This document shows, piece after piece, positions 10,167-24,640 of a stretch of 64,000 nucleotides of DNA. Numbering within the stretch: the stretch's first letter is position 1; the number at the start of each line of letters is the position of its first letter. The stretch comes from Luteimonas sp. MC1750 (GTDB lineage: Bacteria > Pseudomonadota > Gammaproteobacteria > Xanthomonadales > Xanthomonadaceae). The notes beneath the pieces are model-generated. The model made no database searches, was not told the origin of the DNA, and saw nothing but the letters and a program-made list of their open reading frames with translations. Made by a program: the position numbers and the translations under genes. The DNA lies in the NCBI RefSeq assembly GCF_016615955.1, contig NZ_CP067113.1:2926803-2990802 (forward strand), read 5' to 3'.

Positions 10167-12056
10167 TCAGGCCGCGGCGATGCGCCGCGCGCGCTCCAGG
10201 TGCACCAGCAGCAGCGAGATCGCCGCCGGGGTCATGCCGGGGATTCGCTGCGCCTGGCCGACGGTCTGCGGCCGGACCTGCTCCAGCTTCTGCCGCAGCT
10301 CGGCGGACAGGCCGCGCACGGTGGCATAGTCGAAGCCCCCCCCGATCAGCGCGTCCTCGCTGCGTCGCTGGCGCGCGATCTCCTCGCGCTGGCGTTCGAG
10401 GTAGCCGGCGTACTTGGCCTCGATCTCGACCTGTTCGGCCACCGCCGCATCCGCCACCGCCGGGCCGAACGACGCCACGGACGCCAGTTTCGCGTAGTCG
10501 AGCTCCGGGCGGCGCAGCAGGTCGAGTCCGCTGCACTCGCGGCTGATGTCGATGCCGAGGGTGGCGGCGGCGTCGCGCCCGGTGGCGTTGTTCGGCGAGG
10601 CCCACAGCGCGCCCAGGCGCTGCGTTTCGACGGCGACCGCGTCGCGCTTGCGCGCGAACGCGCTCCAGCGCGCGTCTTCGACGAGGCCGAGCCCGCGGCC
10701 CACGGGGGTCAGCCGCAGGTCGGCGTTGTCCTCGCGCAGCTGCAGCCGGTACTCGGCGCGGCTGGTGAACATGCGGTAGGGCTCGACGGTGCCGTGGGTG
10801 ATGAGGTCGTCGACCAGCACGCCCAGGTAGGCCTGGTCGCGGCGCGGCGCCCAGCCCTCGCGGCCCTGCACGGCGCGCGCGGCGTTCGCCCCGGCGAGCA
10901 GTCCCTGCGCGGCGGCCTCTTCGTAGCCGGTGGTGCCGTTGATCTGGCCGGCGAAGTACAGCCCGGCGACGGCCTTGGTCTCCAGCGTCGCCTTGAGTCC
11001 GCGCGGATCGAAGTAGTCGTATTCGATGGCGTAGCCCGGGCGGGTGATGTGCGCGCGCTCGAAGCCCTGCACCGAGCGCACCAGCGCCAGCTGCACGTCG
11101 AATGGCAGCGAGGTCGAGATGCCGTTGGGATAGATCTCGGCCACGCCGAGGCCTTCGGGTTCGACGAACACCTGGTGGCTGTCCTTCTCCGCGAAGCGCA
11201 CCACCTTGTCCTCGATCGAGGGGCAGTAGCGCGGCCCGGTGCCTTCGATCTGCCCGGAATACAGCGGCGAGCGATGCAGCGCGGCGCGGATGATGTCGTG
11301 CGTGCGCGCCGTGGTCTGGGTGATCCAGCACGACACCTGCGCCGGGTGGTCGTCGCGCGTGCCCATGAACGAGAACACCGGACGCGGGTCGTCGCCGGGC
11401 TGCTCGACCATCACCGAATAGTCCAGCGTGCGGCCGTCGATGCGCGGCGGCGTTCCGGTCTTCAGGCGGTCGACGACGAAGGGGCCTTCGCGCAGGCGTT
11501 CGGCCAGCCGCGTCGAGGGCGGATCCCCCATGCGCCCGCCCGCGTGCTGCGCTTCGCCCACGTGGATGCGGCCGGCCAGGAAGGTGCCCGCAGTGAGTAC
11601 CACCGCCGGCGCATCGAAGCGCAGTCCGGTGTGGGTGATCGCACCGCGCACCGTGCCGCCCTCGATCACCAGGTCGTCGACCGCGGCCTGGAACACCGTG
11701 AGGCCCGGCTGCGCTTCCACGGCGTGGCGGACGAAGGCGCGGTACAGCGCGCGGTCGGCCTGGCAGCGCGTCGCGCGCACGGCCGGACCCTTGGACGCGT
11801 TGAGCCGGCGCCACTGGATGCCGGCCGCGTCGGCGGCGCGCGCCATCAGTCCACCCAGCGCATCGATCTCGCGCACCAGGTGGCCCTTGCCGATGCCGCC
11901 GATCGCCGGATTGCAGCTCATCGCACCGATGGTCTCGATGCTGTGCGTGAGCAGCAGCGTGCGCGCGCCGGCACGCGCCGCGGCGAGCGCGGCTTCGGTG
12001 CCGGCGTGGCCGCCGCCGATCACGATGACGTCGTGGCGATGGAAGTCGTGATGCAT
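10167..12056 (-). CDS. mnmG: tRNA uridine-5-carboxymethylaminomethyl(34) synthesis protein MnmG
   Basis: 629 residues, the usual MnmG/GidA length. FAD-binding motif at the N-terminus ([15 protein letters not shown]), the conserved [23 protein letters not shown] block, and the C-terminal helical MnmE-interacting domain. With MnmE it installs the carboxymethylaminomethyl group on U34 of tRNAs decoding two-codon boxes. The partner mnmE lies at the other end of this window (60.1-61.5 kb), not adjacent as in many bacteria. The start [15 protein letters not shown] is chosen because the FAD motif follows within ten residues. A GATAAT box six bases upstream suggests a nearly leaderless message. Confidence 0.96.
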
Positions 12057-12062
12057 TTCGCA

Positions 12063-12068
12063 ATTATC
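12063..12068 (-). promoter_or_regulatory. -10 box abutting mnmG start
   Basis: GATAAT lies six bases before the mnmG ATG. This is a close match to the sigma70 -10 consensus with no room for a 5' untranslated region. Confidence 0.5.
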
Positions 12069-12104
12069 GCGCTTGGCCGCGTCGATGCGGCGGGCGGAGG
12101 GAAG

Positions 12105-12120
12105 TTGGCACGCATCCTGC
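12105..12120 (+). promoter_or_regulatory. Sigma54 (RpoN) -24/-12 promoter
   Basis: The bases TTGGCACGCATCCTGC carry GG at 12107-12108 and GC at 12119-12120 with exactly ten bases between. They match the sigma54 consensus TGGCAC-N5-TTGC at all but one position (C for the first T of the -12 element). The predicted start site is near 12131. The promoter faces away from mnmG, toward a structured region ending in a terminator. Confidence 0.6.
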
Positions 12121-12130
12121 ATTCGATACA

Positions 12131-12252
12131 GGCGCACCCGGGATGGCAATCGCCTAGGGGGGCGTGGCCGGAGATTGGAACAGGGCTGGCCAAGCGCATC
12201 CCGGGGAAGCGAAGGGGCCGAACGTCGGGGGACGTTCGGCCCCGTTTTTTTT
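12131..12252 (+). ncRNA. Candidate RpoN-dependent small RNA, about 122 nt
   Basis: A non-coding stretch begins about 11 bases after the -12 GC of a sigma54-type promoter and ends in a near-ideal intrinsic terminator. A perfect 9-bp closing helix pairs CCCGGGATG (12137-12145) with CATCCCGGG (12197-12205). Inside it lie a small GGC-AATC-GCC hairpin and GGCC/GGCC pairing. It is followed by a single-stranded GAAGCGAA and the terminator hairpin with a GGGG tetraloop. No ORF of credible codon use is present. I do not recognise an Rfam family. It is antisense to the region just upstream of mnmG and could also overlap that gene's promoter. Confidence 0.5.
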
Positions 12253-12253
12253 C
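12214..12253 (+). terminator. Strong rho-independent terminator
   Basis: A perfect 13-bp stem (GGGGCCGAACGTC with GACGTTCGGCCCC), loop GGGG, then GTTTTTTTTC. The U-run exists only on the plus-strand transcript. It therefore terminates a rightward RNA, although no plus-strand protein gene lies upstream. Confidence 0.9.
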
Positions 12254-12462
12254 GGCGGGCCCTGGAGGCCCGCGATGCCGGGTAAGGCGCCGACACCCGG
12301 CAGGAGCGGAACAGGGGGGATCCGGGCTCCCCCGCCGGGTGTCGACATTGGTCACCCCGGTTTACGTCAGGAAGCGACGCAACCGGTCAGTCGGCCTAGC
12401 TTGCGACGACTGCGATGCCGGCGCAAGCGTTCCCGAGGCCGATTTGCGCGACGGCGGTCGCG
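12254..12462. other. Structured non-coding spacer downstream of the candidate sRNA
   Basis: No gene is seen. The spacer holds a 7-bp hairpin (12255-12273) and a larger imperfect hairpin whose outer 11-bp arms (CGACACCCGGC at 12291-12301, GCCGGGTGTCG at 12334-12344) are perfect. An inner GGGGGA/TCCCCC helix lies within them. Read leftward it is the 3' region of the Gly/Tyr-rich lipoprotein gene. The rest (12345-12462) shows nothing recognisable. Confidence 0.45.
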
Positions 12463-13272
12463 TTACCGCTCTTCCTCGGTCGCCGGCCGGCGCAGCCGCT
12501 GCGGAGACACGCGGGTGGGAGCCGAGGCCCGCGATGGGGCCGATTGCCTCGGTGCCTGCCGCATCGGCGGCGCGGTCTGGGCCCGCGGGGCCGGCATCGT
12601 GCGCATCCGCGGCGACGGCGCGGAGCGCAGCGGCGCGTCCGATCCCGCAGGCGCGCGCAGGGCACCGCCATCGCGCACCCGACTGCGCGGCGGCGGGGTC
12701 GGCTGCTGCCGGACCGGCGCGCTGCGCTGAAGCGGCGGCATCGGACGACGCAGCTCCTGGGGCGAGCGCAGGCGGCTGCGCGGCGGAGCCGCTTCACCGA
12801 CGCCGCGCGTCAGCGGGGACGCGGCACCCGGCCGCGGGGACGCGCGCCGCGCGTCCCGTATCCGCTCGAACTCCTCCAGCGAAGACGGAATCCGCGGGTT
12901 GGAGGATCCGGGCCCCCTGCTCACCGGCGGGCGGACATCGGGGCGGTCCCGGCCGCCGGGCTGGGGACGATAGGGCGGACGGTGCTGGTATCCGGGACGG
13001 CTGTACCAGCCGGGGTAGCCGCCGTACCACGGGGAGCCCCACGCGCCGTAGAGGCCGCCGTAGTAGCCCGAGCCGCGGTAGTAACCGGAACTGCCGTAGC
13101 CATAGCCGCCGTAGTACGGATCGTAGTAGCCGGAATGGCCGTAGGGCGCAGCGCTGCCATGGTAGTAGTCGCCGTAGCCGCGGCCATAGCTGCCGCCGTA
13201 CTCGCTGTAGCCATAGCCCGTCGCGCAACCGGCCAGGAGGGCTGCGGCGAGGCCGATGAGGATCTTGCGCAT
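12463..13272 (-). CDS. Gly/Tyr-rich lipoprotein of unknown function
   Basis: 269 residues. The lipobox signal MRKILIGLAAALLAGC is followed by a ~75-residue region rich in Gly, Tyr and Ser (GYGYSEYGGSYGRGYG, GGYGYGSSGYYRGSGYY). Then comes a ~170-residue Pro/Arg/Ser-rich tail with no recognisable domain. Such YG-rich regions occur in surface-exposed or structural proteins and may be disordered or adhesive. No enzymatic motif is seen. The gene is divergent from the PLP enzyme at 13395. Translation is supported by the signal peptide and continuous codon bias, but the function is unknown. Confidence 0.7.
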   Translation of the reverse strand: MRKILIGLAAALLAGCATGYGYSEYGGSYGRGYGDYYHGSAAPYGHSGYYDPYYGGYGYGSSGYYRGSGYYGGLYGAWGSPWYGGYPGWYSRPGYQHRPPYRPQPGGRDRPDVRPPVSRGPGSSNPRIPSSLEEFERIRDARRASPRPGAASPLTRGVGEAAPPRSRLRSPQELRRPMPPLQRSAPVRQQPTPPPRSRVRDGGALRAPAGSDAPLRSAPSPRMRTMPAPRAQTAPPMRQAPRQSAPSRASAPTRVSPQRLRRPATEEER

Positions 13273-24563: not shown

Positions 24564-24640
24564 GCGCCTGTAGCTCAGCCGGATAGAGTAGTGGCTTCCG
24601 AAGCCATTGGTCGGGGGTTCGAATCCCTCCAGGCGCGCCA
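24564..24640 (+). tRNA. tRNA-Arg (anticodon CCG)
   Basis: 77-nt tRNA with encoded CCA. The acceptor stem pairs GCGCCTG with CAGGCGC and the discriminator is G. The D arm has GCTC...GAGT, the anticodon loop is TTCCGAA giving CCG, and the T arm carries GGTTCGAATCC. It reads CGG arginine codons, which are common in this GC-rich genome. A GATAGT at 24541-24546 may be its -10. It lies between divergent ubiA and the end of the convergent GH1-RmlD gene. Confidence 0.97.

Follow-up and report, generated by a model that had tools for sequence, protein, structure and literature searches.

Small RNAs (sRNAs) driven by sigma54 are few. The CrcZ/CrcY RNAs are marked by several A-rich AANAANAA sites that serve as Hfq/Crc targets, and the GlmY/GlmZ system, in which a sigma54 promoter is involved, consists of homologous, unlinked RNAs. 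CrcZ and CrcY are sigma54-dependent sRNAs of Pseudomonas under CbrB-sigma54 (PMC8657755), and in enterobacteria GlmY and GlmZ form an sRNA pair of which one member is a decoy (PMC7073468). Within the passages and the part of Table 1 available to us, the review that covers CrcZ/CrcY lists no sRNA among sigma54 targets in Xanthomonas (PMC8657755). From Xanthomonas, asX1 is an sRNA of Schmidtke et al. 2012, so named by Rfam, PMC4652430, and PMC12189769, and in one Xanthomonas strain HrpG and HrpX control 8 of 24 sRNAs (PMC3771888). The portions of the asX1 descriptions available to us name no regulator or mechanism for it, and mention neither sigma54 control nor an activator or a partner RNA. Likewise, the titles and abstract openings that we surveyed, drawn mostly from outside subscription papers and supplements, held no report of sigma54 control of asX1 or of the second hairpin described below. 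The RNA itself is catalogued, and the predicted sigma54-type switch and the neighboring hairpin would be the additions made here.

The window analyzed here is a 64,000-nucleotide stretch of a 2.99 Mb contig (NZ_CP067113.1) from Luteimonas sp. MC1750. The initial annotation had presented positions 12105–12253 as a candidate sRNA, and this segment is the promoter and gene of asX1: the plus-strand RNA at 12131–12252 matches Rfam RF02235 over its full length (12135–12249, model positions 1–115 of 115, 81.9 bits against a gathering cut-off of 70) and has the same structure as Xanthomonas asX1. We place the 5′ end at ~12131–12132 from the position of the −12 element, and the 3′ end at the T run. The closing helix pairs CCCGGGATG (12137–12145) with CATCCCGGG (12197–12205) at all nine positions, and the inner hairpin holds a conserved core, GGAACAGGG (12177–12185). 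A terminator scan returned the intrinsic terminator at 12214–12252 (+), with a 13-bp stem and 4-nt loop (12214–12243) followed by the T8 tail GTTTTTTTTC; terminator-like sites numbered two in 11900–12700, against a mean of 0.4 in shuffles, and the fold of 12132–12360 reached −131.5 kcal/mol (z −3.7). The helix and terminator reported earlier were thus both confirmed, and the accompanying claim that no plus-strand protein gene explains the terminator is a fair one, though mechanical ORFs cross the stretch. The proposed resemblance to CrcZ/CrcY did not hold. The two would be alike in sigma54 dependence, as predicted for asX1, but asX1 is only ~120 nt long, lacks A-rich Hfq/Crc target repeats (no A-rich AANAANAA site was found on reading 12131–12252), and has another probable activator. 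Elsewhere in the window, a tRNA-Arg (CCG) at 24564–24640 is the only tRNA.

Matches to asX1 occur in 218 of 247 genomes of the family and in 46 of its 54 genera, including 36 of 37 genomes of the same genus, and in none of 24 genomes from other families of the order. For comparison we analyzed 119 asX1 loci from 119 genomes (60 + 59), which span all 46 genera with a match and include weak matches scoring as low as 39 bits (21 of 28 genomes under the Rfam cut-off); one second match at a contig end (L138) was left out. The loci examined adjoin mnmG, which in the window runs on the minus strand from its start codon at 12056–12054 to 10167, divergent from asX1.

The putative asX1 promoter, TGGCACGCATCCTGC, lies at 12106–12120 (+), where direct reading bore out the element described in the initial annotation: −24 GG at 12107–12108, N10, and −12 GC at 12119–12120, with a single difference, C for T at 12117, from TGGCACG-N4-TTGC. 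The Rfam start of asX1 is 15 nt past the −12 C. Taken alone this site proves nothing, because the bare pattern TGGCAYG-N5-TGC is no commoner in this genome than chance would give (24 matches against 29 for the reversed control), and the bare motif was therefore rejected as evidence. The matches to the bare pattern include sigma54 elements before the host glnA and pilA (L313 and L332), the latter ~200 bp past pilR. Across the 119 loci, TGG-N10-GC begins 28–31 nt upstream of the Rfam start in every one, compared with a mean of 0.4 and a maximum of 6 loci when the same pattern was sought at 200 other fixed upstream offsets. A 75-sequence alignment shows no variation in TGG, A, and TGC, and poor conservation over the ten positions that follow, indicating that no −10 hexamer is kept. 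Additionally, in f12, another family of the order, a sigma54 element lies between mnmG and the second hairpin in all 27 returned loci, which were chosen by that hairpin, and is followed 10–13 nt later by GCAC in 25 of them. This constancy of position, together with its recurrence in f12, makes it very probable that asX1 is sigma54-dependent, so the RpoN control proposed for the RNA is supported by comparison, and loss of the −24/−12 bases in relatives was seen in none of the 119 loci.

The rpoN gene is present in 244 of 247 genomes of the family, the host (G000) included, and the only near-complete genome that lacks it (G093) also lacks asX1. Two genomes run contrary to this: G138 (86% complete) has asX1, and G074 (82% complete) has an asX1-like RNA (L069), each with no rpoN match.

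Two other accounts of the locus can be weighed against these comparisons. Were asX1 an ordinary sigma70 sRNA, the −24/−12 match would be a coincidence, an account in keeping with the chance-level abundance of the bare pattern and with an outgroup locus (L103) that has an asX1-like motif and no −24/−12 element. We nevertheless find it barely credible, as the element is held at a nearly fixed distance in all 119 loci and no −10 is conserved; a scan of 11900–12700 found no sigma70 consensus site either, a strict scan for which shuffles likewise gave none. Hardly more plausible is control of mnmG in cis by the RNA or its promoter, which the initial annotation had raised. Of 60 asX1 loci, 57 do have a divergent mnmG start motif no more than 300 nt away, yet the distance between asX1 and mnmG ranges from 87 to 278 nt, and mnmG is kept both where asX1 is deleted and where it is inverted. 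In the first of these cases (L062, genome G193), asX1 and its promoter are missing beside mnmG, and the second hairpin and the candidate operator described below remain, the hairpin 68 nt from the mnmG motif. In the second (L140, Lysobacter profundi, G062), the whole asX1 unit, promoter and terminator included, is turned round relative to mnmG and the second hairpin and so faces mnmG. These cases leave cis control of mnmG without support, and the same two loci indicate that the parts of the asX1 region are separable, asX1 being inverted as a unit in one and missing in the other while its neighbors persist.

Downstream of the asX1 terminator is a second conserved RNA hairpin (element 2; 12290–12345, minus strand as judged from wobble pairs), which has no Rfam match. 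Its apical loop, UCCCCCCUGU (12311–12320, −), is inside a 16-mer at 12308–12323 that reads GGAACAGGGGGGATCC on the plus strand. The exact GGAACAGGGGG..TCC motif was found in 115 of the 119 asX1 loci, 134–420 nt past the asX1 start; the inversion of asX1 in L140 puts it on the opposite strand there. Across 299 genomes of the order, GGAACAGGGGGRATCC occurs in 162, always as a single copy, and its reversed control in none; it is present in nearly all genomes of f1 and f12, the sole f5 genome, 8 of 9 from f11, and 4 of 10 from f3, and in none from f2, f4, or f6–f10. With one copy per genome and a nearly invariant 16-mer in five families, element 2 is a candidate new RNA family. In the outer stem, 8 of 9 pairs have changed on both sides and 97.4% of cells are paired, against 91.0% when shuffled and at most 57% when slid, a covariation signal that is favored by the derivation of the structure from the same sequences and counted, as the strand signal is, without regard to relatedness. 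When read on the plus strand, the mispairs of element 2 are A.C in 59 cases and G.U in 23, the opposite of the asX1 closing and inner helices (28 against 65) and terminator (5 against 40); by distinct stem types, A.C to G.U stands at 47 to 19 for element 2, and for asX1, in the reverse sense, G.U to A.C stands at 103 to 32. Pair 9–72 of the element 2 stem is U-G on the minus strand in 44 of 70. These wobble pairs favor the minus strand, to which we therefore assign element 2. There the hairpin ends in a loop closed by GGA/UCC, with UCCCCCCUGU in most copies, and a clear T run follows the hairpin in few copies. The search for a promoter of the minus-strand RNA found none, and an inverted repeat to its right (described below) yielded no convincing −10/−35. 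Element 2 had also been considered as a second domain of a long asX1 transcript when some f12 loci seemed to be without a terminator, an idea that we dropped because several f12 copies have a terminator, asX1 is inverted in L140, and the wobbles favor the opposite strand.

The asX1 core ACAGGG(G) has its complement in the nearly invariant loop of element 2, UCCCCCCUGU, and the core GAACAGGG is itself present in 117 of 119 loci. In structural models from six species the core is in or beside a loop and the loops are largely exposed, which would allow the core to pair with the loop on the minus strand. When the sRNA was compared with the plus-strand 16-mer, the longest shared stretch had a mean length of 9.5 nt in f1 (6.1 in shuffles), 6.7 nt in f12 (5.1), and 11 nt in two f11 loci (4.8), with registers that differ; in two f3 loci it is at chance. 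Co-folding of the whole asX1 and element 2 RNAs from six species gained only 1–5 kcal/mol. No compensatory change tests the pairing because both cores are nearly invariant, and the only loci with a departing asX1 core (L130 and L149) have no matching change in element 2. We infer from the complementarity that there has been selection for pairing of two convergent RNAs, with element 2 as the predicted convergent partner or antagonist of asX1. A role as a sponge of C-rich sRNAs, sX13 for example, had been envisaged at first.

Further to the right, a candidate operator, CGACGCAACCGGTCA (12375–12389), follows the asX1 promoter at a distance of ~250 bp; it reads as TGACG-N5-CGTCA with two mismatches and has a further half-site, GTCA, at 12366. 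The same palindrome is a feature of pilA enhancers. We fetched 20 regions following pilR, dropped 11 for want of a sigma54 site with a pilin gene after it, and added the host's own pilA to the nine retained; the palindrome is present with at most one mismatch in 7 of these 10 regions (0.12 in shuffles). Right of element 2 in asX1 loci it occurs in 31 of 115 at ≤1 mismatch (0.7 in shuffles) and in 107 of 115 at ≤2 (8.3), and of the 27 f12 loci, 14 have an exact copy (0.02) and 25 a copy at ≤2 mismatches (4.2). The 15-mer was first read off the f12 consensus and recognized in the pilA regions before any counting, which ties the f12 and pilA counts to its discovery. The control counts do not share this dependence: among 12 other sigma54-like host sites there were none at ≤1 mismatch and three at ≤2 (1.1 in shuffles). 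Additionally, a weight matrix built from the asX1 loci scored the pilA regions at a combined p of 8e-6 (3 of the 10 carry it) and the controls at p 0.82. An earlier count of the dyad GTCR-N5-YGAC had given only four matches, in 3 of 10 pilA regions. A GTC-N7-GAC dyad was also considered as an RNA hairpin and rejected, because position −1 does not covary and only positions −3 to −5 do. Beyond the operator, to its right, there is an inverted repeat, GCTTGCG-N16-CGCAAGC (12399–12428 in the window); of 115 loci, 40 have one of its arms and 50 the other.

The location of the palindrome upstream of pilA suggests that PilR binds it, and hence that asX1 loci and pilA have a PilR operator in common. 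The PilR–sigma54 pilA promoters (RpoN2/PilRX in X. oryzae and pilA1 in X. fastidiosa) share the −24/−12 element with asX1, and the pilA regions examined share the palindrome; they differ from the asX1 locus, where the target is an sRNA and the operator is downstream. Among eight small asX1 genomes compared, the only activator that all eight have is an orthologue that we take to be PilR from its features (GSFTGA, a conserved C-terminus) and its position before pilA, because no other rises above background in G109, where the asX1 promoter is intact. The host has five clear activator domains, PilR among them. Co-occurrence hardly discriminates beyond this because PilR is nearly universal in the family (247 genomes), and its presence there was set aside as evidence. 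Several asX1 genomes have no PilR-grade match, namely G108 (92% complete, E 2.5e-78), G142 (93%), G083, G279, and G290, and two genomes that are 99–100% complete (G139 and G158) have weaker matches near 1e-109, perhaps from split genes. On balance, PilR, the type IV pilus regulator, is the likely activator of asX1.

The identity of the activator and the partner of the complementary cores are the two points at which other readings carry more weight. The NtrC dyad consensus is TGCACC-N5-GGTGCA. If asX1 depended on sigma54 through NtrC or a lineage-specific activator, the pilA-like operator would belong to element 2 alone, a role that it may indeed have, as it persists with element 2 in G193, which has no asX1. 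A protein that we take to be an NtrC-like activator, from its C-terminal features, is present in seven of the eight small genomes, and upstream of the asX1 promoter the palindrome shows no enrichment at ≤1 mismatch (2 of 119, 1.7 in shuffles); at ≤2 mismatches that DNA is mildly enriched (29 of 119, 16.2 in shuffles with a maximum of 24), to which mnmG codons may contribute. X. fastidiosa, according to the part of PMC3224663 available to us, has only NtrC and PilR; the table of predicted sites there is limited to annotated genes, and neither sequence that precedes asX1 in genus g69 (taken for Xylella) occurs in it. Against another activator, NtrC-like dyads are at chance in asX1 loci (2 of 119 at ≤2 mismatches, 2 in shuffles) and PilR is the only clear activator in G109, and we consider such an activator improbable. 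The host glnA has two near-matches to the NtrC dyad, listed at ≤3 mismatches. Also unlikely, though it deserves some weight, is that asX1 and element 2 do not pair at all and instead both carry GGAACAGGGG on the plus strand for one common partner, for example a protein that binds RNA or a group of mRNAs. A shared ligand would be expected to leave the two with one and the same core, in one orientation and with hardly any variation, as is seen, and some forms of the core contain GGA, a CsrA-type motif. However, the wobble pairs, including the U-G at pair 9–72, put element 2 on the minus strand, and two f11 loci shift the common stretch to CAGGGGGAATC, which is still within the 16-mer.

We therefore favor, at a probability of roughly 0.6, a reading in which asX1 is driven by sigma54, activated by PilR, and paired with a convergent minus-strand RNA. 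Transcription of asX1 by RNA polymerase-sigma54 would be the strongly supported step, its −24/−12 promoter being conserved throughout Xanthomonadaceae and in one or more other families of the order. In the next step, a likely one, PilR bound ~250 bp downstream at the operator shared with pilA would activate asX1 by looping, and asX1 would then be made under conditions that induce pili. Finally, the hairpin between the terminator and the operator would belong to a minus-strand RNA whose C-rich loop UCCCCCCUGU may kiss the asX1 core ACAGGG(G), making the two a convergent pair of regulator and antagonist. Either asX1 would sequester a C-rich-loop RNA that otherwise blocks G-rich ribosome-binding sites, or the second RNA would sponge asX1. 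Such a system would resemble GlmY/GlmZ in being an sRNA pair with one decoy and in the involvement of a sigma54 promoter, but asX1 and element 2 are unlike each other, converge within ~250 bp, and have complementary motifs. It would be unusual, if true, for a sigma54 sRNA to have a convergent complementary RNA as its partner. The family-wide sigma54 promoter and the pilA-type operator give asX1 a candidate regulator and a physiological setting, surface pili. More tentatively, and with rather more doubt than confidence, the locus may be an ancient two-RNA switch beside mnmG in Xanthomonadaceae and several further families, in which PilR at one operator would act through sigma54 on asX1, loop–loop pairing with an undescribed convergent minus-strand RNA would allow either to hold the other in check, and the state of the pilus would be coupled to mRNAs with G-rich ribosome-binding sites.

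The arrangement extends beyond the reach of the Rfam model. We examined the region divergent from mnmG in 48 loci, 24 from genomes of the family without an Rfam match (29 searched) and 24 from other families. Element 2 is present in 18 of the 48, and in 16 of these 18 there is a GG-N10-GC between it and mnmG, five of the 16 by a relaxed pattern only; L062 and L103 are the exceptions. A sigma54 element followed by GCAC was found in none of the 30 loci without element 2, four of which span ≤500 bases. Rfam recognized none of the 18 asX1-like loci scanned (two from f12, two from f11), and in these four from f12 and f11 the asX1-like RNAs are outside the asX1 model.

Some genomes depart from the common arrangement altogether. 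G093 (genus g53), which is 99% complete, has neither a sigma54 DNA-binding domain nor a PilR-grade match, asX1, or an element 2 beside mnmG. At L103 (G040, family f5), the asX1-like motif GGAACAGGGGCTGTCC has no sigma54 element and has TTGACA upstream, possibly a promoter switch. Two f11 loci, L091 and L094, have in place of asX1 a much shorter RNA (TGGCCCGCTCCTTGCA) that is preceded by a sigma54 element, with CAGGGGGAAUC and one terminator hairpin.
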